Source: an uncultured Cetobacterium sp. (GTDB lineage Bacteria; Fusobacteriota; Fusobacteriia; Fusobacteriales; Fusobacteriaceae). From it: a stretch of DNA of 64,000 nucleotides. Of this stretch, positions 8,167 to 25,601 are shown piece after piece. Each line of letters begins with the position of its first letter. The first letter of the stretch is position 1. The stretch lies in NCBI GenBank assembly GCA_934085975.1, contig CAKOHT010000002.1, positions 124,001-188,000 on the forward strand. The letters are read 5' to 3'. The position numbers were made by a program, and so were the translations under genes. The notes below the pieces were generated by a model, which worked only from the letters and a program-made list of their open reading frames with translations, searched no databases and was not told where the DNA came from.

Positions 8167-8472
8167 TTATTTCAACATCTCTTTAACTTGAGCAAGTAAA
8201 AACTTTCCACCCAATGGACTATATCCTTTAGTTTCAATAACTTCTACTGGAACATCATTCTCCTTTCCAAGTCCCTTAAACTCATCTATTTTATGTCTGA
8301 TTTGTGGTGCCACTAAAGCCCCATCCCATCCATTTTTTAATTCCGCTTCAAACTCTCCAGTTCCAACAGCTTTAGATACAATCTCTAATCCTTCTTTTTT
8401 TCCTTCATTTACTAAAGCTTTTACAACCATTGCACTTGACATTCCACCTGAACAAACTAATAATATTTTCAT
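8167..8472 (-). CDS. PTS lactose/cellobiose-family EIIB component
   Basis: Encodes 101 residues. Residues 1-12 (MKILLVCSGGMS) carry the phospho-cysteine C7 in the family CSxGMS loop. A single Rossmann-like domain follows, ending with the helix FLLAQVKEMLK. First gene of the minus-strand operon EIIB-EIIC-EIIA-mupG-kinase-GH4-rpiR, with promoter elements and a palindromic operator candidate in 8492-8558. Confidence 0.92.
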   Translation of the reverse strand: MKILLVCSGGMSSAMVVKALVNEGKKEGLEIVSKAVGTGEFEAELKNGWDGALVAPQIRHKIDEFKGLGKENDVPVEVIETKGYSPLGGKFLLAQVKEMLK

Positions 8473-8491
8473 TTTTTATCCTCCAATTTTA

Positions 8492-8506
8492 TGAAAAAAT
8501 TTTACA
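8492..8506. promoter_or_regulatory. Candidate RpiR operator in the PTS operon leader
   Basis: TGAAAAAATTTTACA fits the pattern TGWAAA-NNN-TTTWCA. It lies between the EIIB start and its likely promoter, roughly +17 to +31 of the minus-strand transcript. A matching site sits in the divergent leader at 8673-8687. Some RpiR-family repressors, such as HexR, bind 15-bp palindromes of this kind. Assignment to the local RpiR is inference. Confidence 0.5.
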
Positions 8507-8529
8507 TTTTTTATTTTTCATCTATATTA

Positions 8530-8717: not shown

Positions 8718-9934
8718 TTGACAAAATTAAAGTTTTTTTTATTTTTAGTAGCATCTCTTTTAATTTCAACTGGAAGTTATGCTAATGTTGCGGGGGAAGA
8801 CGCCAATACCGAATCTTTTGTTTTGGATATTTTTGATGACTTAGAAGCTGAAGAAAAAGAAGCTGAAACAAATCCAAAAGTTTTGGAGTTAAAAAAGGAA
8901 ATTTCTTATTTAGAAAGTGCATTAGAAAAATATATGAACACTCCGATGAACAGTAGCTCTGGGTCAGCCTACAGAACAACCTTATCATTCGGTGCTGAAG
9001 ACGAGCTCACATCAACTCAACATTATAGATATAATGACAATAGTCATACTATATCTCCTAGAATTGGATTCACAACTCAAAAAAAAGGTAGTCATTTTTT
9101 ATTTGATGGATATTACAGCCAAACAATCTGGTCTGGAGAATCTAAAAAAGAAATACAGAAGTTTGATATTGGTGTTACTTATATGAAGCCTACTACACTT
9201 CTAAGTATGCCATTTAGATATGGGGGAAGAATAGGGTTTAGAAACCATACTGAATCTACTCCACTTAGACTAGTTGATATTAATAGCTCGTATGTTAATT
9301 ATCACAGAGGACATCAAAGAAGATACGAATATTGGTTTGCTCCAGCCGTTTCTTTTGATCCTATTCCAAAGTTAAATGTAGCTCTATCTACAACTCTAAG
9401 AATTATAGATCATAGATTAACTTGGGATATTTTTGATAAAAACCCCAATGGACCTGCTGGCTATAATTGGAACGTTGAAACAACTGAAACAAGTAAAATT
9501 TTACAATACTACTTCAGAACTAGATATCAATTAACAGAAAATCAAACTTTTGGAGTTGAATATCTTTATGTGGAAGAAGATTTAAAAAGAATTATTCTCA
9601 ACAAAGAACATTTTATATTATTTAGATATTCATATAAACTTCCTAATAAAAAACAACTTTATCGCCGTATGTGCGATTACCAATTAAGGATAGAGATTGG
9701 ATAACTATGTTACCTACAACAGGAGATATGAGTGAAATTAGAAGAGGAGAAAGACCTAGATATGGATTTGTTCTTGGACATTCTTTTGGTGGTGGACTGT
9801 CGTTTAGAATAGATGCTCATATGAGAGCTGACTCCGAAAAATATCTTTCTACTGGCGATCCTGGTGTAACTATCGGAAAAACAAGAAAAGAAAATCTTTA
9901 TAATATTGATTGGAGTTTTAATTATACATTTTAA
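8718..9934 (+). pseudogene. Outer-membrane beta-barrel protein gene with a -1 frameshift
   Basis: Starts with TTG at 8718, seven bases after AAGGAGGG. A signal peptide (to about residue 22, ...GSYA) is followed by an acidic segment, a short coiled coil (LELKKEISYLESALEKYM, about 55-72) and then amphipathic beta strands: a porin-like barrel. The frame is lost after about residue 311 and stops at 9702-9704. The remaining barrel (RYGFVLGHSFGGGLSFRID ... WSFNYTF) lies in another frame to 9934. Adding one base to the A6 run at 9648-9653 joins the frames smoothly (PNKKTTLSPYVRLPIKDRDW) to give about 405 residues ending in the Phe of an OM protein. First gene of the plus-strand glycan operon; it probably admits glycan fragments. 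Real mutation, phase variation and sequencing error cannot be separated here. Confidence 0.75.
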
Positions 9935-9968: not shown

Positions 9969-10808
9969 ATGAAAAATACATTATTTATCTTGTCATTAAT
10001 TTTATCAATAGTCACTTATGCAAATACAGCTAGTACAACAACTACTCCTACTAAATCAACAACTTCTAAATCAAGTTCTGTTAATTTTGATATCTCAAAA
10101 GAAGAATTAACAAAAATAGGAGATCAAATATTCTTTAATGAAGCTAGTTCAAAACCAGAAAAACTAGTTTGGTGGAATGATGGAGAAGACTTCCCATCAC
10201 TGGGAATAGGTCATTTTATTTTGTATCCTGCTGGATACAATGGACCTTTCGATGAAAGTTTACCAAAATTGAAACAGTACTATATCCAAAGAGGTATTAA
10301 ATTACCTAAAATTTTAGCTGATAACGCTCACGCCCCTTGGAAAAATAAAGCTGAGATGGAATCCAAACGAAACACACCTGAATTTAAGGAGCTTATAGAC
10401 TTTTTCAATAATACAAAAGACACTCAGGTTACGTATATTTTTAGAGTCCGTTTAACCGCAGCTTTAGCTAAAATGTTAGAAAAAACAGAGAATAAAAAAC
10501 ATGTTCAGGAACAATTTAAAAGAATGGCTATGTCTACAAATGGACTATATCCTTTAATTGACTACGTTAATTTTAAAGGTGAAGGTGTTATGATTACTGA
10601 AAGATACAAAGGTCAAGGCTGGGGATTATTACAAGTTTTAGAAGAAATGAAGGGAACTCAAACTGGGCAAGCTGCATTGGATGATTTTTCAAGAACTTCA
10701 ATTGTTGTTTTAACTAACAGAGTCAAAAACTCTCCACAAGAAAGAGGGGAAAATAGGTGGCTTCCTGGTTGGACTAATAGATGTAATACTTATAAAACTT
10801 TTAAATAG
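9969..10808 (+). CDS. Secreted lysozyme-like protein
   Basis: Encodes 279 residues. A signal peptide (residues 1-19, ending TYA) is followed by a Thr/Ser-rich linker of about 25 residues and a globular domain. That domain opens with FFNEAS and WWNDGEDFPSLGIGHFILYPAG (about residues 55-85). A Glu followed by GxGH recalls the active-site entrance of T4-type lysozymes (E...IGIGH), so a muramidase-like fold is my inference; the rest matches no family I can name. It lies 34 bases after the OM barrel and 30 before the autotransporter, in an operon with two GHL10 hydrolases, which also suggests glycan-strand cleavage. Confidence 0.6.
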   Translation: MKNTLFILSLILSIVTYANTASTTTTPTKSTTSKSSSVNFDISKEELTKIGDQIFFNEASSKPEKLVWWNDGEDFPSLGIGHFILYPAGYNGPFDESLPKLKQYYIQRGIKLPKILADNAHAPWKNKAEMESKRNTPEFKELIDFFNNTKDTQVTYIFRVRLTAALAKMLEKTENKKHVQEQFKRMAMSTNGLYPLIDYVNFKGEGVMITERYKGQGWGLLQVLEEMKGTQTGQAALDDFSRTSIVVLTNRVKNSPQERGENRWLPGWTNRCNTYKTFK

Positions 10809-10838: not shown

Positions 10839-13800
10839 ATGCTTAATAAATACGAAAGTTTATTAAAAAGATTTTTAAAAAATAAAATAGAGCTATCCAC
10901 AGCTACTATTGTAGCCATATGCATAGGTAACAATATCGCTTATGGTGCTACAGCTGCTATAACTCCATCTGGAAATACTAATAGTGAGAATGTAGTAATC
11001 ACTGGCGCTACACTAAATCCAACAACTACGGAGGGACAAGGGTATATCCACTTTTCAAGTACATCTAATATTTTAAATACTGGAAACATCACTGCTGAAT
11101 TTATAGGCGGGCAATATAGTAGAAAGATATATGGTTTAACGACTGAAAGTACATACAATCCTAGTAACACTCTTTCTAATTCTGGAAATATAACTATAAT
11201 AGCAAACAGTAATCAAGCCGCTAAACCTGATGGCAGTGGTTGGGGAGGATTGGATATAAGAGGTATTTCAACTAAAGGTAGTGTTGAAAATTCTGGAAAT
11301 ATTAATTTAACTTTGAATAACTTTGCCTCTAGAACATCCATTGCTGCATATGGAATACTTGGAAGTGATTCTCAAACAACTGGAAATACTATTAATAATG
11401 GAGAGATTACTCTTACTATCAGTAACACTGGTGACATTTTATCCTCTACACCTACAAGTAGTTCGGCAGTTTCTACAATTGCTGGAATAAAAGGTAAATT
11501 TGTTGAAAATAATAAATCTGTTACAGTCAATGTAAATAATTCTGGTTCCATCAGAAATGATCCAAGTGGTACAGCAAACTTCTTAGTTTCTGGTCTACAA
11601 GCTAGTGGTACTACAACTAATAATGGTGTTGTTACAGTTAATTACAATAATTCTGGCTCTATTAGTGGAACTATTCCTGAAAAAGTATCTGGAATATACC
11701 TTACAGGTAATGCTAGTGCTATAAATAACGGAATTTTAGATGTCAGTTATTCCTCTAATGTAGTTGGTGGAGAAGCTTATGCTATAAGAATTGAAGACTG
11801 GAATGGAAATATTAGTACAGATGAATCTAAAGCTACCAATAATGGTATCGTTGTTATTTCTGGAAACGTTAATATCGATAATATCGCAAATGATGACGGC
11901 ATGATTTATAACAAGGATACAGGAATAGTGATTTCTGCTGGAGGTGTTATTGCCGAAGGTACTGATAGAAATATGAGTGCTGATGATCTAAACGGGGCAC
12001 AGACTATCAATAAATTTAGTTTAAACTTAACTACAGGAGTTTCTAATAATGCTCAAATAAATGCTATTGCTGGAGAAAATGCTCTTTTAAATGTTTTAGC
12101 TGACCAAGATGTTACTTTAAATGGAACTAGAATATTGTCTTACTCTCCTAGTTCACTACTAAAAACTTCTGATTTAAGTGCTCTTATTACTACACAATCT
12201 GGCAGTGTTTTGACTGTAAATGATGTAGATTTTACAACTTCTGCTCTAAATGCGATTTACGCTTTTGGGAATACTATAAATATTGGACAAAATTCTATAG
12301 TAAATGCCACTTATGCAGTTAAATTATCCGACGATATCTTTGATAACACTGAGTATAGAAAAGTTTCTATCGATTCAAGCTCCCAAATCAATGGTAAGCT
12401 ATCCGGAGGTCTTAACTCTATGGATGCTTTGATTCTAAAAGATACTACTGAAACCGATGGAACAATCTCAAATGAAGTCAGTGGATTCGAAGCTCTTGTT
12501 GCCGAAAGCGGGAACTGGAACATTTCGAATGTTATTAATTTAAACGCACACAATACATCAGTTATCACAGATTTGTTCAATGCTGATGGAAATATCACAA
12601 TTTCTGAAGGTGGAGTTTTAAATTTAGCAATTGATGCTGACAATAGATATTCTTCATCTGTTTATGCCAATGATTTACAGATTTCTGAAGGTGGAAAATT
12701 AAATATTAATATAAAAGGATCTACTTTGATATCAAAAGAAACGACTATAAATCTATCTATTTTAAATCTAAATCAAGACTTCTCAACTTCAGACTCTATT
12801 CAAGAAGCTATGGATAATTCTATTGCAGCTGGATTGATATCTACTAATATAGTTGGTTCACCGTCTTGGCAAGATTCACTTTATAATTTAAGTTATAATT
12901 GGAGTTTTGAAGATGGACAACTGAAATTAAATTTAATTCAAGCTAATGGACCTACTTTGGTAGGAGGATACAACCAAAGTATTAACAATTATCCTCAATC
13001 TAACCTTAACGAATTAGCTATGGATTTAATTGATTCAGCTGGTTCTAAGATACTTCGAAATTCAAAAATTCAAGCTATGAGAAATGGGAAAACGCAACAA
13101 CCTATATTTGCTGAATTTTTAGGAATGATTGGAGACTACACGGGAAATAACCAAGATTATAAATATAGTTCTGTTGGATTTTTAGTTGGAGGAGCTAAAG
13201 AATTAACTTCTAATCTAACTCTTGGAGCTACTTTTGGACAACTTTCATCTGACGTTGATTATAAGGATGGCGCAAATGCAGGAACTTCTCAAAAACCAAA
13301 TATTAGAGATAGCAATGAAGATGTTAAAACGTATGCTTTCAATACCTATTTAAACTATAATTATAAAAATTGGTTAGGAAATGTTAGTGCTGGAATATCT
13401 AATAATGAACATGACTTAAGTAGAAAAGTTATTGATACAGATAACAATACTTTTAGAGAATTAACTTCTAACTTCGATTCTAACATAACAAAATTTGGTG
13501 TTGAATTCGGATATGTCAAATCTTTTGGGGAATCATCGTTTCTTTATCCATATGCTTCATATCAACACTTAACTATTACTAGAGATGCCTATCAAGAAAA
13601 AAAGACAGAGGATACATATTTAGATTTAGCTGTTAAAAAGAATAAATTTTCTACAGGTAGAGGCATCCTTGGGTTAAATCTTCAAACTAAATATAATTCT
13701 TGGAAATGGTCTGCTGATTTAGCTTATATCTCTAATTTCTCAGAAAGAAAAGCAGCCGATGCCAGTTTCATAGATATTGGTAATGATGTTAGCTTCTCTA

Positions 13801-13958
13801 TTCCTGAATTAGAAATTGGTAAAAATACTCTAAAAGCTTCACTAGGATTTGATTGTGAATGGACTGAAGCTTTTAGTATAAACGGAGCTTATGAGTTTTC
13901 TGACAATTCATCCTATAGTAACAACACTCTTTCTTTTGGAGCTAAATATACGTTTTAA
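10839..13958 (+). CDS. Type Va autotransporter
   Basis: Encodes 1,039 residues. The N-terminus has a long basic leader before a hydrophobic core (FLKNKIELSTATIVAICIGNNIAYG), the extended signal form common in fusobacterial autotransporters. The passenger (about 40-740) is a low-cysteine, Asn/Ser/Gly-rich repeat of beta-helix type with recurring SGNI, NNGxI and NSGSI rungs. Residues from about 765 (QPIFAEFLGMIGDY) to the end form the 12-strand autotransporter domain, ending SFGAKYTF. The passenger has no visible protease or lipase motif, so adhesion or carrying enzymes at the surface is more likely. It is embedded in the glycan-hydrolase operon with a 20-base gap to the next gene. Confidence 0.88.
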   Translation: MLNKYESLLKRFLKNKIELSTATIVAICIGNNIAYGATAAITPSGNTNSENVVITGATLNPTTTEGQGYIHFSSTSNILNTGNITAEFIGGQYSRKIYGLTTESTYNPSNTLSNSGNITIIANSNQAAKPDGSGWGGLDIRGISTKGSVENSGNINLTLNNFASRTSIAAYGILGSDSQTTGNTINNGEITLTISNTGDILSSTPTSSSAVSTIAGIKGKFVENNKSVTVNVNNSGSIRNDPSGTANFLVSGLQASGTTTNNGVVTVNYNNSGSISGTIPEKVSGIYLTGNASAINNGILDVSYSSNVVGGEAYAIRIEDWNGNISTDESKATNNGIVVISGNVNIDNIANDDGMIYNKDTGIVISAGGVIAEGTDRNMSADDLNGAQTINKFSLNLTTGVSNNAQINAIAGENALLNVLADQDVTLNGTRILSYSPSSLLKTSDLSALITTQSGSVLTVNDVDFTTSALNAIYAFGNTINIGQNSIVNATYAVKLSDDIFDNTEYRKVSIDSSSQINGKLSGGLNSMDALILKDTTETDGTISNEVSGFEALVAESGNWNISNVINLNAHNTSVITDLFNADGNITISEGGVLNLAIDADNRYSSSVYANDLQISEGGKLNINIKGSTLISKETTINLSILNLNQDFSTSDSIQEAMDNSIAAGLISTNIVGSPSWQDSLYNLSYNWSFEDGQLKLNLIQANGPTLVGGYNQSINNYPQSNLNELAMDLIDSAGSKILRNSKIQAMRNGKTQQPIFAEFLGMIGDYTGNNQDYKYSSVGFLVGGAKELTSNLTLGATFGQLSSDVDYKDGANAGTSQKPNIRDSNEDVKTYAFNTYLNYNYKNWLGNVSAGISNNEHDLSRKVIDTDNNTFRELTSNFDSNITKFGVEFGYVKSFGESSFLYPYASYQHLTITRDAYQEKKTEDTYLDLAVKKNKFSTGRGILGLNLQTKYNSWKWSADLAYISNFSERKAADASFIDIGNDVSFSIPELEIGKNTLKASLGFDCEWTEAFSINGAYEFSDNSSYSNNTLSFGAKYTF

Positions 13959-13978: not shown

Positions 13979-15481
13979 ATGAGTTTAAAAAATAAAATTT
14001 TAATTTCAACTTTTTTAGCTAGTATTTCTGTTTTGGGAAATACTACAGAAACAATTAAATATAAAGATATTTCTATTCCAAAAACGGCTCCATCTGCTAA
14101 AAGAGAACTTAGAGCTGCTTGGATTGCTTCTGTTTTTAATATTGACTGGCCCTCTACTCAAGGGCTTTCTGTACAAGACCAAAAAAATGAATTAATAAAA
14201 CTTCTTGACGAAATAAAATCCATGAATATGAATGCCGTTATTGTCCAAATTAGACCCACAGCTGATAGATTTTATAGTACTCCTACAGATGAACCTTGGT
14301 CTAAATATTTAACAGGAATTGAGAATCAAGATCCTGGATATGATCCTTTAGCTTTTATGATTGAAGAAGCCCACAAAAGAAATTTAGAATTTCATGCTTG
14401 GTTCAATCCATATAGAATAACAGCCACAAAAGGAGCTACTCTATCAGAAAACCATATTGCTAAAAAAAATCCTGATTGGGTTATTGAATATGACGGTAAA
14501 TTATATTATGATCCTGGTAATCCGGAAGCTAAAAAATTTACACAAAAAATTATTTTGGACGTTGTAAAAAATTATGATTTAGATGCAGTTCATATGGATG
14601 ACTATTTCTATCCATATCCAACTATCGTTAATGGAAATCCTCTTCCTTTTCTTGACGATAAATCTTTTAGAGCCTCAGGAACTTCTTTTTCTAAAGAAAA
14701 ATGGAGAAGAGAAAACGTAAATACATTTGTAAAAGAAACTTCAGTACTTATAAAAAAAGTAAAACCTTATGTTAAATATGGAATTAGTCCTTTTGGAGTC
14801 TGGAGAAATGCTTCCGTCGATAGAACTGGCTCTAATACATCTGCTGGGCATAGTAACTACGATTCTCTCTATGCTGATACTAGAAAATGGATTAAAATGG
14901 GGTGGGTTGATTATATAACTCCTCAAATCTATTGGGAATTTGATTTAAAAGTTGCTCCATACGCTGGACTAATCGATTGGTGGTCTAAAGAAGTTACTGA
15001 AAACGACAATGTTCACCTGTATATTGGGCAAGGAGCATATAAAATTGGAAGCAATGAAAAATGGGGAGCTGAGGAAGTTCCAAACCAAATTAAATATAAT
15101 CGAACTTCCGAAAGAGTTTCCGGAAGTATGCATTATGGTTTAAAAAATCTTGTTAATAACAACCAAAATATAAAGACATCTTTAATTACTGATATATATA
15201 CTAAAAAATCTTTGATTCCTACTATGCCTTGGATTGATAATATCGCCCCTGAAGCCCCTATCGATATAAAACTAAAAAATGGGATTCTTACTTGGAAAGA
15301 TGATAGTAAAAATGATTCTACGTACTATGTTATATACAACGGTGACGAAATTATTGATACTGTCCCACGTTTGAGAAACAATAATTTTAGTTATAACTTA
15401 GGCAATAATCTTACAAATATCAGAATAAGCTCTGTTGATCGACTACACAACGAATCCGATATAATCGAAGTTAATCAATAG
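13979..15481 (+). CDS. GHL10-family (DUF187) glycoside hydrolase-like protein, copy 1
   Basis: Encodes 500 residues. Signal peptide to about residue 20. The GHL10 TIM barrel starts at RELRAAWIASVFNIDWPS (about 41-58) and contains NAVIVQIRPTADRFY, FHAWFNPYRI, DAVHMDDYFYPYP and ITPQIYWEFD, all family hallmarks; the HMDDYFYP and QIYW segments lie where the catalytic acids are expected. A fibronectin-like C-terminal domain (about 410-500) follows. The E. coli member DigH cleaves denuded peptidoglycan glycan strands. The protein would act in the periplasm or outside. Paralogous to the next gene, ten bases downstream. Confidence 0.85.
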   Translation: MSLKNKILISTFLASISVLGNTTETIKYKDISIPKTAPSAKRELRAAWIASVFNIDWPSTQGLSVQDQKNELIKLLDEIKSMNMNAVIVQIRPTADRFYSTPTDEPWSKYLTGIENQDPGYDPLAFMIEEAHKRNLEFHAWFNPYRITATKGATLSENHIAKKNPDWVIEYDGKLYYDPGNPEAKKFTQKIILDVVKNYDLDAVHMDDYFYPYPTIVNGNPLPFLDDKSFRASGTSFSKEKWRRENVNTFVKETSVLIKKVKPYVKYGISPFGVWRNASVDRTGSNTSAGHSNYDSLYADTRKWIKMGWVDYITPQIYWEFDLKVAPYAGLIDWWSKEVTENDNVHLYIGQGAYKIGSNEKWGAEEVPNQIKYNRTSERVSGSMHYGLKNLVNNNQNIKTSLITDIYTKKSLIPTMPWIDNIAPEAPIDIKLKNGILTWKDDSKNDSTYYVIYNGDEIIDTVPRLRNNNFSYNLGNNLTNIRISSVDRLHNESDIIEVNQ

Positions 15482-15491
15482 GAGACCAACT

Positions 15492-17219
15492 ATGAAATTA
15501 ATAAAAAGTTTAACTTTTATTTCATTAGTTTCTCTAACATCCTCTTTAGTTGCTGGAGAACAACAGCAGCTAAAAGTTTTTAAAGAGATTGATAACAATG
15601 GAAAAATTATTTATTCGACAGAAAATGTTTTAATTGATACAAAATCTTTAGACAAATCAGTTACAATTCCAAAAAGTTACGAAATACCTAAAGAGATGAT
15701 GAGAACAACTTGGGTTGCAACAGTTGACAATCTTCACTATCCAAAAGTTGTAAATGGTAAAATTCGTAACTCTGTTGAAGAGTTGAAAGAGGATTGGATT
15801 GAAATTTTAAATAATCACGAACAGATGAATTTTAATACTGTTATATTTCAAGTAAGTCCTACTTTAGACGCTGTATATGAATCTGAATACAGACCATGGT
15901 CTCATGTGTTAACTGGAGTTCAAGGACAAAAACCAGAGTGGGCTAATAATTTTGATTTAGTAAATTGGATGATAGAAGAAACTCACAAAAGAGGTATGGA
16001 ATTTCATGCTTGGTTCAATCCATATAGAGTAAGTCACAAGTATATTCCTGATACAACTTATGACAAAGAGATTGAAAAATTGAGTTCTAATAACTTTGCA
16101 AGACAAAACCAAGATTTAACATATATGTTTGACCAAAAACTATATTTAGATCCTGGAAATCCTAAAACTATTGAACATATAACAGGTACTGTCAATGAAT
16201 TTATCAACAAATATGATGTTGATGCTATTCATTTTGATGACTATTTCTATCCGTACAAAGTTACTAGAAATGAGGTTACCTCATATTTTGGTGATAATTT
16301 AGAAGATGAAAAAACTTTTAAGGAAAATTCTAGAGGTTTTAACGATATAAAAAAATGGAGACAATCTAATAATGACCTAATGGTTATAGCTGTTAAAGAT
16401 ACTATTGACAACTATAATAAGCAAAATAATAAATCTATTCAATGGGGTATTAGTCCCTTTGGTATTTGGGAGCATAAAGAGGAAAACAGTTTAGGTACAA
16501 ATACTCCTATCGCTTCTACAGCTGCCAATAGAGATATCTATGCAGATACTAGAAAATGGGTTGTTGAAGAAAATATTGACTATATCATCCCTCAAGTTTA
16601 TTGGGAATTTACGCAACCAGCTGCACCATATGGAGAAATCACTTCTTGGTGGAACAATGTAGCAGAAAATTCTAGAACTCATCTTTATATTGGCCATGCT
16701 AATTATAAACATATGAATGCTGGCTGGGCTAAACATTGGCAAAATCCTGAAGAGATTGCTAATCAATTAAAATTCAATAACAATTATAAAAATATTAAAG
16801 GAAGCGCTTTTTTTGGTTATACTAGTTTACTAGAGATGGAAAATCCTGAAAATAAACCCGGGATTACAGCTCAAAATGCGCATATAAAACTATTAAAAAG
16901 TAATTACTTTAACAAAAAAGTTTTAGTTCCAGCTAAACCATGGCTGGATAAGCAAAGTACATTACCTATTGAAAATATAAAAATGCAAAATTCAAAGGAT
17001 TCTGTTACCCTGACATTTACAGATAAAATTTCTAATGATTCAAGATTCTATGTAATCTATTCAGGAGATGAAATCTTAAAAGTTGTTGGAAGAGATAAAA
17101 AATCTGATAGACAAGAAATCAACATACCTTTAAAAGAATTAGCAGGTAAAAAAATAACAGGCTTATCTATTAAAGATAGAGCTGGAGTAGAAACACCTAT
17201 AACTAAAATTAATCAATAA
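15492..17219 (+). CDS. GHL10-family (DUF187) glycoside hydrolase-like protein, copy 2
   Basis: Encodes 575 residues with a signal peptide to about residue 21. The barrel shows the same hallmarks as copy 1 (MMRTTWVATVDNLHYP, FHAWFNPYRV, DAIHFDDYFYPYK, IIPQVYWEF) with longer insertions, and a C-terminal beta-domain. The sequences differ enough (for example FDD versus MDD) that a distinct linkage or strand end may be cleaved. Last gene of the original operon: its 3' end and the following terminator have been separated by a module carrying an ATPase gene, with the last 31 bases repeated on the far side at 18592. Confidence 0.85.
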   Translation: MKLIKSLTFISLVSLTSSLVAGEQQQLKVFKEIDNNGKIIYSTENVLIDTKSLDKSVTIPKSYEIPKEMMRTTWVATVDNLHYPKVVNGKIRNSVEELKEDWIEILNNHEQMNFNTVIFQVSPTLDAVYESEYRPWSHVLTGVQGQKPEWANNFDLVNWMIEETHKRGMEFHAWFNPYRVSHKYIPDTTYDKEIEKLSSNNFARQNQDLTYMFDQKLYLDPGNPKTIEHITGTVNEFINKYDVDAIHFDDYFYPYKVTRNEVTSYFGDNLEDEKTFKENSRGFNDIKKWRQSNNDLMVIAVKDTIDNYNKQNNKSIQWGISPFGIWEHKEENSLGTNTPIASTAANRDIYADTRKWVVEENIDYIIPQVYWEFTQPAAPYGEITSWWNNVAENSRTHLYIGHANYKHMNAGWAKHWQNPEEIANQLKFNNNYKNIKGSAFFGYTSLLEMENPENKPGITAQNAHIKLLKSNYFNKKVLVPAKPWLDKQSTLPIENIKMQNSKDSVTLTFTDKISNDSRFYVIYSGDEILKVVGRDKKSDRQEINIPLKELAGKKITGLSIKDRAGVETPITKINQ

Positions 17220-17221
17220 AA
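17191..17221 (+). repeat. 31-bp direct repeat, left copy
   Basis: The last codons of the GHL10 gene and its stop (17191-17221) recur exactly at 18592-18622 beyond the ATPase gene. The repeat includes the final residues TPITKINQ and the TAA. Confidence 0.9.
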
Positions 17222-17277
17222 TAAAATTTCACACTATCAAATCTATTTTTGGGTTATAACCTATAAAACTTTATAAT

Positions 17278-17319
17278 TCAATATAATTTTTAGGGTTATA
17301 ACCCTAAAAATTATATTGA
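17278..17319. repeat. 42-bp perfect palindrome upstream of the ATPase gene
   Basis: A perfect inverted repeat centred between 17298 and 17299 on GGGTTATAACCC. It could fold as a terminator-like hairpin for the upstream operon and also serve as an operator. The core motif GGTTATAA recurs at 17252, 17294 and 17336, at exact 42-base spacing. Confidence 0.9.
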
Positions 17320-17344
17320 TTTTATATCTATTTAAGGTTATAAT
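17316..17344 (+). promoter_or_regulatory. Promoter of the ATPase gene
   Basis: TTGATT (17316-17321), 17-base spacer, TATAAT (17339-17344). The -35 overlaps the right arm of the 42-bp palindrome and the -10 overlaps the third GGTTATAA motif, so a protein binding these motifs would block transcription. Confidence 0.75.
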
Positions 17345-17363
17345 ATACCAGAGGTGGTCGATT

Positions 17364-18578
17364 ATGATTAAAAGAGAAATGTATTTAAAAAAAATAAGAC
17401 CTTATGTAGATAAACCCTTTGTAAAAGTAATAACAGGAATGAGAAGATCTGGAAAATCGGCTATTTTACAAATATTAAGAAATGAATTTATTGAAGGTGG
17501 CGTTTCAGAAAAAAATATTATTTTTATAAGTTTTGAATCAATGAAATATGATTATATTGAGAATGCCTCTACTTTATACGAAGAGATTTCTTCACTTATA
17601 AAAAATAAAAAAAAGTATTATCTTTTCTTAGATGAAATTCAAGAAGTTAAGGATTGGGAAAAAGCTATAAATTCGTTTCTGGTAGATTTTAATATTGATA
17701 TCTACATAACAGGTTCAAATTCTAAATTATTATCTTCTGAGCTTGCAACATATATAGCTGGGCGTTATATAGAAATTTCAATATATCCACTTTCTTTTAA
17801 AGAACATCTTTTATTTAAAAAAGAAGTTGGTGAAGAAGACATTCTCCCCTTAGAAAAAGAATTAGAACACTACATTAGATTAGGTGGATTTCCAGTTGTA
17901 CATACTTCTAAATATTCACCAGATGATGCATATAAAATTATTTATGATATCTATTCGTCTATAGTTTTAAGAGACATTATTCAAAGAAATAATATTAGAA
18001 ATATAGAACTCTTAGATCGAATAGTAAAATTTGTATTTGATAACATAGGGAATACTTTTTCTGCTAAAAAAATTGCTGATTATTTTAAAAGTCAACAAAG
18101 AAAAGTGGATTTAAATACTGTTTATAATTATTTAATAATGCTTGAGGCTGCATTTATAATCCAAAAAGTATCAAGATATGACCTTAAAGGAAAGAAAATT
18201 CTTCAAACTAATGAAAAATTTTTCTTAGGGGATCCCTCTTTAAAATATGCTGTAATGGGATTTAAAGATAGAGATATTTCAGGTATTTTAGAGAATATAA
18301 TCTATTTAGAACTAAAAAGAAGAGGATACAATGTATACATTGGAAAACTTAATGATAAAGAGATTGACTTTATTGCTGAAAGGAAAGAGGAAAAAATCTA
18401 TATTCAAGTTGCGTATAAAATGTCTTCTGAAGAAACGATCCAACGAGAGTTCTCTCCTCTTTTAGAAATTAAAGATCATTACCCAAAATTTGTTATAACC
18501 ATGGATGAATTTTTTCAAGACAATATTCAAGGCGTTAAACATTTAAAACTTTTAGATTTTTTATTGGAAACTTTTTAA
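17364..18578 (+). CDS. AAA_14/DUF4143 family ATPase
   Basis: Encodes 404 residues. The ATG at 17364 follows GAGGTGG; a longer frame starting at 17316 would begin inside the promoter and is rejected. Domains: AAA ATPase (about 10-160) with Walker A GMRRSGKSAIL at 24-34, Walker B YYLFLDEIQEV at about 88-98 and sensor ITGSNSKLL; a winged-helix-like middle (FSAKKIADYFKSQ); and a C-terminal DUF4143 domain with a PD-(D/E)XK-like core (LELKRRGYNVYIGK, EIDFIAE, YIQVAYKM). The function of this very common family is not established. It has its own promoter and operator-like motifs and sits between 31-bp direct repeats, so it looks like a recently inserted cargo gene. Confidence 0.88.
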   Translation: MIKREMYLKKIRPYVDKPFVKVITGMRRSGKSAILQILRNEFIEGGVSEKNIIFISFESMKYDYIENASTLYEEISSLIKNKKKYYLFLDEIQEVKDWEKAINSFLVDFNIDIYITGSNSKLLSSELATYIAGRYIEISIYPLSFKEHLLFKKEVGEEDILPLEKELEHYIRLGGFPVVHTSKYSPDDAYKIIYDIYSSIVLRDIIQRNNIRNIELLDRIVKFVFDNIGNTFSAKKIADYFKSQQRKVDLNTVYNYLIMLEAAFIIQKVSRYDLKGKKILQTNEKFFLGDPSLKYAVMGFKDRDISGILENIIYLELKRRGYNVYIGKLNDKEIDFIAERKEEKIYIQVAYKMSSEETIQREFSPLLEIKDHYPKFVITMDEFFQDNIQGVKHLKLLDFLLETF

Positions 18579-18591
18579 TCATTATTAGTTA

Positions 18592-18622
18592 AAACACCTA
18601 TAACTAAAATTAATCAATAAAA
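18592..18622 (+). repeat. 31-bp direct repeat, right copy
   Basis: Exact copy of 17191-17221. It is directly followed by the hairpin terminator that would originally have ended the GHL10 operon. Confidence 0.9.
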
Positions 18623-18624
18623 AT

Positions 18625-18677
18625 AAAGCTGGTTTGAATAAATGAAGATTCACTCTGTTATTCTCACCAGCTTTTTA
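18625..18677 (+). terminator. Terminator originally belonging to the GHL10 operon
   Basis: AAAGCTGGT at 18625-18633 pairs with ACCAGCTTT at 18666-18674, with a further inner GAATAA/TTATTC pairing, then T-run. It now also ends the ATPase gene. Confidence 0.75.
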
Positions 18678-18741: not shown

Positions 18742-19455
18742 TCACCAATTATCTTTTTCAGAAATTAGTTGAACTTTTTCTTTATTTAAAAATTTTTCCA
18801 TCCTCTCAAGTTCTATTTTAGATAAAGATATAGCCCACTTTGTGAAATCTTTTACATTTTCTGTGGTTAAGTAATTTATATACTTTCCCTTTTCTTCTTT
18901 TGTAATTATGAACGGGGGAATATTTTCTTTTATACAACTATCTATCATCAAAATTCTCCCAGTTCTTCCATTCCCATCACTAAAAGGATAAATTTTTTCA
19001 AATTTAATGTGCTGGTCAATTATTATCTCAATTTTTTCTTCAATTGTTTTAGAATTTTTCATTCTGAAATTGTAGTTATCGCACCATTCTTGTAGTAAGT
19101 ATGGGACTTGATAAGGTTTTGAAGTTTCAAAATCTACTCCTAATATTATATTGGATATTTTTTTAAATTCTCCATTATCGTCTGCTAAATTTTGCATAAT
19201 CTCCTTGTGATAGGATTTTATCAATTTGGGAGACATCTCCTCTTCGTTACTCAATAAAAAATCAACAGTTTTTTTATAATTTTTAACTTCATGGTACTCT
19301 CGTTCTGTCATATCACGAGGAATATAATTATATATTAAAATTGATAAAGTATCAGCTTGTGTTAGTGTATTCCCTTCAATTGCTGTTGAATGATGTGCCA
19401 TTCTAACTAATAAATCATCTAAATATTCATTGGACATCTTTTTTATTATTGGCAT
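18742..19455 (-). CDS. Fic-family protein with Tyr in place of the catalytic His
   Basis: Encodes 237 residues; the start is placed at MPIIKKM (19455), where GGAGAG has proper spacing. Fic proteins transfer AMP or other phospho-groups to target hydroxyls. The N-terminal STAIEGN matches the (S/T)xxxE(G/N) inhibitory helix of class II Fic proteins. The Fic loop reads YPFSDGNGRTGR: everything after the first residue fits HPFxxGNGRxGR, but the catalytic histidine is Tyr (TAT codon, seen in the DNA). The protein is thus probably unable to AMPylate by the usual mechanism, or uses a different chemistry. It is transcribed alone; no partner antitoxin is adjacent. Confidence 0.82.
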   Translation of the reverse strand: MPIIKKMSNEYLDDLLVRMAHHSTAIEGNTLTQADTLSILIYNYIPRDMTEREYHEVKNYKKTVDFLLSNEEEMSPKLIKSYHKEIMQNLADDNGEFKKISNIILGVDFETSKPYQVPYLLQEWCDNYNFRMKNSKTIEEKIEIIIDQHIKFEKIYPFSDGNGRTGRILMIDSCIKENIPPFIITKEEKGKYINYLTTENVKDFTKWAISLSKIELERMEKFLNKEKVQLISEKDNW

Positions 19456-19629
19456 TTTTCTCTCCATTTTTTATTTTATTATATCCTATTTTATATAGAA
19501 AATCAAACTCTTCACACTTATAAGTTCTTCAACGTGAATTCTCGTAAATTTATAGATTTTTTAAAAGAAATTTTTACTTTTTGACGAATATAAATCATAA
19601 TAAAAATATATTTGCAGGAGGTTTGTTCT

Positions 19630-22609: not shown

Positions 22610-23272
22610 ATTTTATATTTTTTATATCTATCGTATCTACAATTTTTTTCAATGCTTTCTCTTTTTTTTTAGCTTCAACTTCATAGTTTTCATCCTTTGT
22701 AACCCTTGCATGATGTACATCTAAAACCATTCCTACTCCTAGTCTTTCACATAGTTCTAACACTTCATTAACTTTATAATAATGACAATTTTCCAAAACT
22801 AATATTTTTTTGTATCCTTATCTAAACGATTATATGTTTCAATAAATTTATATACTCTCTCCTTTTTCCCAATGTGAAGAACTAAATCGCTTATTCCTGC
22901 TAATTTTGCAAAATCTACTTGATTTTTAAGTATTTTCAAGGAGTTTTCAATGACCTCCGAATTATCACTATTTAATACCACAAACTGATCTGGATGAATT
23001 ATAAGTCTTATTTTAAAACTATGTTCTTTTATAATTTTTAGTTTTTCTAAAATATCTTTATCCTCTTTCCAATTCCAAAGATTAGGATATGGAATCACAG
23101 AGGACGAAACCCTATAGATATATCCATTTTTCAAGCAAAACTTTATACATTCTAAAGTGTAATCTAAATTAAATAGTGCTGCTTCTTTAACTTTTTCCAA
23201 GTTAAAATTTTTAAGTGCATTAACACCCTTTTTCATGCCTTTTCCATCTAACATACAAACAAGCCCTAGCAT
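22608..23272 (-). pseudogene. uvsE: UV damage endonuclease UvsE/UVDE, frameshifted and C-terminally truncated
   Basis: Two frames encode adjacent parts of one UVDE protein. Residues 1-157 (23272-22799) include NLDYTLECIKFCLKNGYIYR, RVSSSVIPY and IHPDQFVVLNS, hallmarks of the TIM-barrel repair enzyme that nicks DNA 5' to UV lesions. A separate 62-residue frame (22796-22608) carries LENCHYYKVNEVLELCERLG and VLDVHHARV, the next conserved block. An additional base in the seven-T run at 22805-22811 joins them (KKILVLENCHYY). Even joined, the protein is about 230 residues and lacks the final ~60-70 residues of usual UVDE, ending against the terminator. It therefore looks inactive by two independent faults. 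Confidence 0.78.
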
Positions 23273-24571: not shown

Positions 24572-24612
24572 AAGAGAGATTTCGGCCCCTTCCCCGAAAT
24601 CTCTCTTTTTTT
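24572..24612 (+). terminator. Strong terminator after the second GlsB gene
   Basis: AAGAGAGATTTCGG at 24572-24585 pairs with 24594-24607 around CCCCTTCC, then a T-run. It overlaps the end of the convergent Fic gene. Confidence 0.88.
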
Positions 24613-25519
24613 AATTTAAAAATTTTTTTATAACTTCTTTATAATTATCTTGCATAGCTAAACAAGTCTCTTCTAGAAATCCTTTCTCCTCTTCATAGTT
24701 TGAAAGCCCTCTATAGTAAAAAGCTTTAAAACTATCCTCTATAATAAAAGGAACAATATTATTCTTTAAACACTCTTTAAACATTAAAGCTCTTCCAACT
24801 CTTCCATTTCCATCTTGAAAAGGGTGAATTTTCTCAAATCTATAGTGAAATTCCACTATATCTTTAAATGTTACAGTTTCTAAAGAACTATACCATAATA
24901 AAAGTTTTTTTATCTCTTTTTCAACATCTTTTGGTTTCGCAGTTTCCTTTCCACCAACCTCATTTGGTAAAGATTTATACTCTCCTACTTTAAACCAACC
25001 TTTTCTAGAATCCTCAGTTCCACTCTTCAGTATTTTATGATACTCTTTTATTAAATCTTGACTCAAACCAACATCTACTTTATCAAGCATATAATCAAAA
25101 AGATAAAAGTGATTTGCGGTCTCTACAATGTCATCCACATTCTGTGTCTCATCTTTTGAAATAAGGGTATTTGTTTCAAAAATAAATCTAGTTTCATCTT
25201 CACTTAGTTTACTTCCCTCAATTCTATTGGTATTATATGCAAACTTTATTTGAGTATAGTGATATATATTTCCTTTTAGTTTCATATTCTTTTGCTCTTT
25301 TAATATATCTGCTAAAGTCTTTTCCTCTTTATCATTTAAAATTTTAAAAACTTCATCTAAAGTTTTATCTAGATATTGTGATATTTTATAGAGATTTTCA
25401 ACTCTCATACTCTCTGGCTTTTCAATTCCACTAACTAAAGTAGAGTATGGAATCCTTGTATCTTTGGATAATTTCAATAAAGAAATTCCTTTTTCTTTTA
25501 AATAATCTTTAAAATTCAT
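24611..25519 (-). CDS. HTH-Fic fusion protein
   Basis: Encodes 302 residues. The start is ATG 25519 (MNFKDYL), five bases after GAGGTGA; a GTG nine bases upstream lies inside that site. Residues 1-62 form an XRE-type helix-turn-helix (GISLLKLSKDTRIPYSTLVSGIE). Residues about 90-300 are a Fic domain with inhibitory-helix-like TNRIEGS and a complete active loop HPFQDGNGRVGR, including the catalytic His. It is likely an AMP-transferase that regulates its own transcription or a DNA-associated target. Unlike the Fic protein at 18742, the active site is intact. No antitoxin gene is adjacent. Confidence 0.88.
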   Translation of the reverse strand: MNFKDYLKEKGISLLKLSKDTRIPYSTLVSGIEKPESMRVENLYKISQYLDKTLDEVFKILNDKEEKTLADILKEQKNMKLKGNIYHYTQIKFAYNTNRIEGSKLSEDETRFIFETNTLISKDETQNVDDIVETANHFYLFDYMLDKVDVGLSQDLIKEYHKILKSGTEDSRKGWFKVGEYKSLPNEVGGKETAKPKDVEKEIKKLLLWYSSLETVTFKDIVEFHYRFEKIHPFQDGNGRVGRALMFKECLKNNIVPFIIEDSFKAFYYRGLSNYEEEKGFLEETCLAMQDNYKEVIKKFLN

Positions 25520-25601
25520 AAAAATCACCTCATATATATATTATCAGTTTTTCGTGAATTTTTCAAATGTTAACTATATTTAGTGAATTTTACCTCAATT
25601 T

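Follow-up and report, generated by a model that had tools for sequence, protein, structure and literature searches.

A gene for an ATPase of the DUF4143/PDC-S01 type lies, in a 64,000-nucleotide stretch of the genome of an uncultured Cetobacterium sp. (contig CAKOHT010000002.1, positions 124,001 to 188,000 of the forward strand; the whole stretch is hereafter called the window), between two exact copies of the end of the preceding gene, which encodes a glycosyl hydrolase-like (GHL10) protein. The arrangement is probably that of a one-gene cassette, composed of an operator array, a promoter and the ATPase gene, which enters gene ends by recombination and is likely to be autoregulated. Comparison with related sequences suggests that the PDC-S01 family may travel as such a cassette, about one in five of the examined related genes being flanked by duplicated DNA, and the window cassette presumably arose in the same way as those at the other loci described below.

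The coordinates of all features are collected in Table 1. A first-pass annotation of the window had described the last bases of the GHL10 gene, stop codon included, as recurring exactly after the ATPase gene. This holds: the left copy contains the end of the gene (..ETPITKINQ-stop), and the repeat, with a period of 1401 bp, is exact over 31 nt and covers 41 nt at 90% when extended with mismatches. Apart from a pair within the GHL10 paralogues (14387/15999), it is the sole exact same-strand repeat of at least 22 nt in the window. A hairpin with a T-run directly follows the right copy and none follows the left one; the hairpin therefore fits, as had been proposed, as the original terminator of GHL10. 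The only open reading frame (ORF) of at least 100 amino acids in the inserted segment is the ATPase, hence no recombinase is encoded there, and the ends of the segment share no inverted pair of at least 14 nt. The ATPase gene is richer in AT than its neighbours, with a guanine-plus-cytosine content of 25.7% versus 27.5-33.5% in five other measured genes. The 31-bp core, CCTATAACTAAAATT, bears a resemblance, and a likeness only, to CCTATAACCATAAAT, an operator variant of a related locus (L105). For five ATPase clusters (P0121, P0125-P0128) of Logan-type contigs, which we take to come from k=31 assembly, the longest contig has exactly 1430 bases; going by lengths alone, this would be the value (1401 - 31 + 60) expected from such an assembly at a 31-bp repeat.

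The cassette would have arrived as a circle or as a fragment, provided in either case with a short piece homologous to the 3' end of GHL10, and would have entered that end by a crossover between the two. GHL10 would thereby keep a complete end on one side, and the displaced copy would stay before the old terminator. The joining might be carried out by the ATPase itself, by a host recombinase or by ordinary homologous recombination.

The palindrome, the promoter-like sequence and the ATPase were all found between the repeat copies, as first annotated. Against 0.05 occurrences expected in the window, the word GGTTATAACC was found at two places, and both are upstream of the ATPase; the second lies at the centre of the palindrome, whose right end overlaps the -35 box. 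With a third, degenerate site, GGTTATAATA, they form a series with spacings of 42 and 42 bp. A chance origin of repeat and palindrome was considered and ruled out, on this expectation and on the longest common word found across 60 Markov shuffles of the two 500-nt ATPase flanks, which was 13 nt against 31 nt observed.

Sites like GGTTATAACC, defined as having 2 mismatches or fewer, are present within 200 nt upstream at 33 of 48 loci, and at all 21 loci of at least 54% identity, the window being included in both counts and some of the 21 being mutually close relatives. Pairs of such sites 41-42 bp apart were found at 15 of these 21 loci. In more distant loci the matches are less certain, because 2 mismatches permit chance occurrences in AT-rich DNA. 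Independently of the word itself, an upstream direct repeat (at least 15 of 18 bases, at an offset of 20-70) was found for 59 of the 153 ATPase ORFs with 130 nt of upstream sequence present. The offsets peak at 23 (12 ORFs), 32-33 (17 and 17, some ORFs being in both) and 39-42 (13 in total), whereas 407 control ORFs gave 0, 2 and 2 cases at the same offsets. A few of the 59 are of low complexity, and the repeated word is unlike between ATPase paralogues. Helically phased, gene-specific promoter sites, taken together with a helix-turn-helix (HTH) in the protein, point to autoregulation: the ATPase would probably bind the phased GGTTATAACC sites via its winged helix and control its own promoter. 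For the palindrome, to which the first-pass annotation had drawn attention in connection with the insertion, the link to the ATPase stands, but it is not evidently an insertion site; judged from its sequence, it is rather a conserved operator-like promoter element belonging to the ATPase. Other palindromes (e.g. TTTGAAGTTAACTTCAAA, TTTTTAGTATTAATACTAAAAA) were seen, mostly by eye, at the promoters of remoter members in Enterococcus (L248), Listeria (L250), Lactobacillus (L249) and Fusobacterium (L085/L089).

The protein is composed of an AAA+ domain (AAA_14), a winged-HTH-like stretch and a DUF4143 domain with a PD-(D/E)xK-like C-terminus. In the part corresponding to the middle stretch, the ATPase of one relative (L175) matches HTH_11 above the cut-off. 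The Walker A and B motifs are kept (GK and DE columns of the alignment), and the PADLOC model PDC-S01 is matched over the full length (E 4.5e-161). Eight further ATPases have PDC-S01 models as their best match: seven with an adjoining duplicated gene or gene end, plus that of locus L208. The canonical PD-(D/E)xK motif is absent from the window protein, in which D335 and E310 are present and QxA stands in place of ExK; in the family alignment, ExK is found in 82 of 148 sequences and QxA/S/C/T in 59. When the family alignment was searched by sequence against the PDB, nothing matched at E≤0.01. Structure comparison with the archaeal ATPases SSO1545 (2FNA) and PAB2304 (2QEN), which we take to be of the MNS type, covers only residues 1-299 and barely tests residues 307-404. 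We know of no mobility of the MNS-type archaeal ATPases.

According to the available portions of PMC12988326, PDC-S01 was found by 'guilt-by-embedding', is an ATPase fused to a PD-(D/E)xK domain and ranks fourth in abundance among the defences of all prokaryotes, with 29,494 bacterial and 9,986 archaeal systems; validation is pending for most such defence candidates. PDC-S01 is thus a very common, single-gene candidate for phage defence, not yet validated. Unlike the cassette described here, PDC-S01 appears in those portions without gene-end duplications, operator arrays or mobility. No description of mobility or operators of DUF4143, AAA_14 or PDC-S01 ATPases was seen among the papers listed, including the available portions of PMC8195603, PMC12988326 and PMC13356809.

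Flanking duplications were surveyed around relatives of the ATPase. Homologues were drawn from plasmid, phage and viral collections and from three genome sets: 99 genomes of the order to which a Caloramator genome belongs, 393 of the order that includes a Bacteroidales genome, and 398 of the phylum that includes a Clostridiales genome. To these were added 80 stretches around DUF4143 domains, at least those listed, in 12 genomes of the Bacteroidales order, which were chosen and not random: all had given an earlier match and were selected for many candidates or a striking locus. ATPase ORFs were identified by a profile from alignment A2 (156 matches). ORFs of 200-800 amino acids with both flanks at least 250 nt long were counted, after removal of repeated ORFs and strongly self-similar matches, and a direct non-tandem repeat between the 700-nt flanks at E≤1e-5 was scored as positive.

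By this measure, 32 of 152 ATPase ORFs are flanked by a repeat, compared with 14 of 368 other ORFs (115 loci; Fisher p 3e-9); across the relatives, repeat lengths range between 26 and 247 bp. The positives include short or intergenic repeats that the filter did not remove, at L147 (=L112), L137 (=L102) and L135 (=L100). The difference persists in a translated search (23/152 versus 8/368), among ORFs with at least 60 nt of intergenic sequence on both sides (30/126 versus 11/167, p 3e-5) and in the 80 survey stretches alone (22/98 versus 3/109). A copy falls at the terminus of a neighbouring ORF of at least 60 amino acids for 14 of the 152 ATPases and 2 of the 368 others (p 1e-6), the neighbour having at least 300 amino acids in 9 of these 14 cases and in neither of the two controls. 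An earlier look at 34 regions and the window had given a non-tandem repeat at 9 of 44 ATPase-like and 12 of 269 other ORFs; the later profile identified one of these 12 (L163 15458) as an ATPase, and it is counted so among the 152. GHL10 loci, used as first controls, were unlike the ATPase loci: 3 of 65 gave a repeat at E≤1e-3 and none at 1e-6.

In the plasmid and phage collections all homologues fall below 60% identity, and a flanking repeat was found at one (L250) of six plasmid loci examined with 1500-nt flanks at E≤1e-3. Two loci were found in viral contigs by the ATPase and 2 more by the alignment; these contigs gave no match to the palindrome and none to the repeat. At 12 of the 32 positive loci, the clustering of mismatches around an identical core reaches nominal significance (permutation p<0.05, without correction), and the identical core was for this reason dropped as a general feature. 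Low-complexity repeats near the Bacteroidales loci L096, L102, L109 and L118 were treated as unrelated. One non-ATPase control gene (L153 13719-15488) is flanked by a 135-bp perfect repeat and is perhaps another mobile element.

A duplicated gene end next to an intact target was seen in the window, twice at L148, and at L149, L189 and L175. At L148 (genome G335), a different DUF4143 ATPase stands behind each of two paralogous TPR histidine kinase genes, in one case parallel to the kinase and in the other convergent with it, and a displaced copy of the kinase's 3' end comes next. A third kinase-end case in the same genome is L206, where the contig breaks off within the kinase gene, and at L171 the ATPase is convergent with a fourth kinase end. 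At L189 (G285), the ATPase lies behind a sensor/AraC gene, between 102-bp copies at 90% which hold a 53-nt identical core between diverged edges. The duplicated end belongs to an AAA_16/TPR/cyclase-like gene at L149 and to a GHMP-kinase-like gene at L175; at L136, a small gene is duplicated in full (220 bp, 98.6%), with one copy on either side of the ATPase. L149 holds three copies of one gene's end (8447-8517, 8848-8918, 10328-10398), two of them displaced, as after two successive insertions. ATPase ORFs also occur in clusters within 18-20 kb, six in L146 (G229:C74) and five in L133 (G337:C1), which suggests insertion hot spots or serial adjacent insertion.

The differences between the two copies, counted by codon position, are [3,0,7] at L189, [5,4,19] at L206 and [3,0,8] at L175, and thus fall mostly on third positions. 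Because of this bias, both copies appear to have been coding after their separation, which fits poorly with a fresh local duplication followed by decay, and well with a gene end borne by the cassette. Taken alone, any single locus could be put down to a gene end that was duplicated locally, by slippage or in tandem, with the ATPase there by coincidence; given copies that diverged as coding alleles in three cases, the recurrence at several genes and genomes, and the empty sites reported below, this explanation is highly improbable. The same allele-like copies are less easily set against passive acquisition, in which a gene under selection, e.g. for phage defence, would be brought in by ordinary homologous recombination from a donor of the form 'homologous gene end + ATPase', nothing being self-moving. 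This is a serious rival, possible though somewhat doubtful, and it would also suit a 1370-bp insert without recombinase and a family known as a defence candidate. It sits badly with the rarity of duplications around other genes of the same loci (14/368; 2/368 at ORF termini) and with the three different ATPases which, in one genome, stand behind paralogous kinases and before displaced kinase ends.

Empty sites were found at two loci. A query made of the joined flanks of L189 gave one uninterrupted match in the congener G908 (75%, 746/791 bases), in whose alignment the gene runs into the right flank without an ATPase, and partial matches across the junction in G903 and G180. At L175, the two neighbouring genes are close together in the congeners G905 and G902. 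No ATPase ORF was found in eight congener loci, though not all of them span both flanks. The congeners may alternatively have lost the ATPase, rather than G285 having gained it. For L136, the genus is represented by its own genome only. As for the window, its GHL10 protein has its closest named relatives in Cetobacterium and Fusobacteriaceae metagenome-assembled genomes; judging by titles, no Fusobacteriota record was present among the best 80 of at least 587 matches of a GHL10 protein search, and a first such scan gave no relative. The Fusobacteriota DNA compared consisted of plasmid-collection records only (an Ilyobacter plasmid and a 2.1-Mb Fusobacterium vincentii record), to which a 25-kb stretch of the window gave one 166-bp match, outside the ATPase locus.

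The first-pass annotation had also read the locus as a mobile gene that spares its target. This is borne out in part: the duplicated ends around other DUF4143 ATPases and the empty sites at two of them speak for it, while several close homologues lack a flanking repeat. The following points weigh against the cassette interpretation. No repeat of the kind scored was seen at 120 of the 152 ATPase ORFs, 14 of 368 control ORFs are likewise repeat-flanked, and the 32 positives are not independent, because 14 come from two genomes (G335, G285). In the window's own subfamily, taken as the 20 other loci of at least 54% identity, a single clear gene duplication was seen, L101/L136; at the remaining loci there is either no repeat, a low-complexity one, an intergenic one without explanation (L100, L107) or, at L097, ATPase paralogues on the flanks. 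The operator is present without a flanking repeat at L119-L121 (63%), at L091 (64%; none reaching 12 nt within 900-nt flanks) and at L086 (58%; downstream flank only 148 nt). The empty-site support comes from L189 and L175, not from the window's own locus, and no congener matched across the junction of the first L148 kinase. The codon-position bias is weak at L148 and L149 ([5,7,11], [12,10,17], [10,8,12]). At L163, a shared terminator is possible, because each of the 33-bp copies marks the end of a different gene, the two genes being convergent. At L208 no gene is spared, because both copies are fragments of the start of a DegT-like gene (named by eye); its reading as a spared gene start was rejected, only fragments being found on both sides. 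Finally, a nuclease role of the ATPase is doubtful, because the subfamily of the window reads QxA and not (D/E)xK.

Among known elements, prophages such as e14 and phage 21, which integrate in the 3' end of icd, bring a replacement end with them, but such elements are many kilobases long and carry an integrase. The duplicated gene end, the whole target and the silent differences between ends (L189, L206, L175) are shared with e14-type elements, from which the present insert differs in measuring 1.4 kb, with one ATPase and no tyrosine or serine recombinase. Integrases usually leave an insert bounded by a duplicated gene end, and a host or resident site-specific recombinase, of the Xer type or an integrase encoded elsewhere, could move the element in trans by using gene-end sites, the ATPase being its cargo or target selector. 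Of 7 plasmid loci with annotation, 4 indeed have an annotated recombinase or integrase gene no more than about 2.5 kb from the ATPase (L084, L246, L247, L249; not L248, L250, L251). In the window, by contrast, none of ten proteins encoded between 9969 and 25528 matched a Pfam recombinase (two were without any match), the repeat lengths in the family are as variable as reported above, and no common core was noticed, no dedicated core search having been made. Movement in trans is distinctly unlikely.

With IS21/Tn7-type transposons the cassette shares an AAA+ protein linked to DNA insertion, and Tn7's TnsA has a restriction-enzyme-like fold. The insert differs from these, and from DDE-type transposons in general, in lacking a transposase ORF and a terminal inverted pair, and the duplications are long and variable (31 bp here, 26-247 bp in relatives) where those transposons produce short, fixed ones. 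A bolder proposal, tentative and rather unlikely, is that DUF4143/PDC-S01 ATPases are autonomous mobile elements of a new, one-gene class, whose AAA+/winged-helix/nuclease-fold protein would drive its own integration into gene ends via the carried gene-end copy. Phased self-operators would then set copy control or immunity, and embedding in defence operons would reflect mobility, not defence.

Table 1. Features of the ATPase locus and adjoining genes in the window (position 1 is the first base of the 64,000).
Feature	Position	Strand	Remarks
GHL10 (glycosyl hydrolase-like) gene, target, left whole	15492..17219	+	Pfam PF02638, E 6.8e-57
Left copy of the exact 31-bp direct repeat	17191..17221	+	Extended copy 17186-17226
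Inserted segment between repeat copies, 1370 bp	17222..18591	+	Only one ORF of at least 100 aa
Operator-like site 1, GGTTATAACC	17252..17261	Not assigned	
42-bp perfect palindrome	17278..17319		Operator-like site 2 (GGTTATAACC, 17294-17303) at its centre
Promoter-like TTGATT-N17-TATAAT of the ATPase	17316..17344	+	Read by eye in the sequence
Third, degenerate operator-like site, GGTTATAATA	17336-17345		Holds the -10
ATPase gene, 404 aa from its ATG	17364..18578	+	AAA_14 + DUF4143
Right (displaced) copy of the exact 31-bp repeat	18592..18622	+	Extended copy 18587-18627
Hairpin and T-run, intrinsic-terminator-like	18625..18674	+	-19.2 kcal/mol
Fic gene, directly after the cassette and not part of it	18742..19467	-	PADLOC PDC-S04
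Second Fic-domain gene	24611-25528	-	PADLOC PDC-S04

Upstream of the target lies a tandem paralogue of GHL10 (13979-15481 and 15492-17219), the two genes having a 22-bp exact stretch in common (14387/15999), and the pair is preceded by an autotransporter gene (10839-13958, Pfam). Five nearby proteins were compared with PADLOC: the products of both Fic genes match PDC-S04, another candidate, best and SoFic more weakly, while the two GHL10 proteins and the autotransporter match nothing. A DUF4143-type ATPase also adjoins Fic genes on the Ilyobacter plasmid pILYOP02 (L084). A 157-amino-acid ORF on the minus strand (22799-23272) may be a gene fragment, because its match to UvdE, a UV endonuclease, covers only positions 32-178 of 275.

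If the interpretation as a cassette is correct, elements of a single gene would slip behind other genes and replace their ends, within a family that PMC12988326 ranks as defence. Minimal mobility without a recognised recombinase would become testable, and the paralogue-specific phased operators, as read from the promoter sequences, would offer a direct handle on this family of candidate function. Insertion behind genes would in itself cause operon 'embedding', and could stand as an alternative to a defence role. If the members of PDC-S01 are indeed mobile one-gene cassettes, the guilt-by-embedding argument for their part in defence needs to be re-examined.

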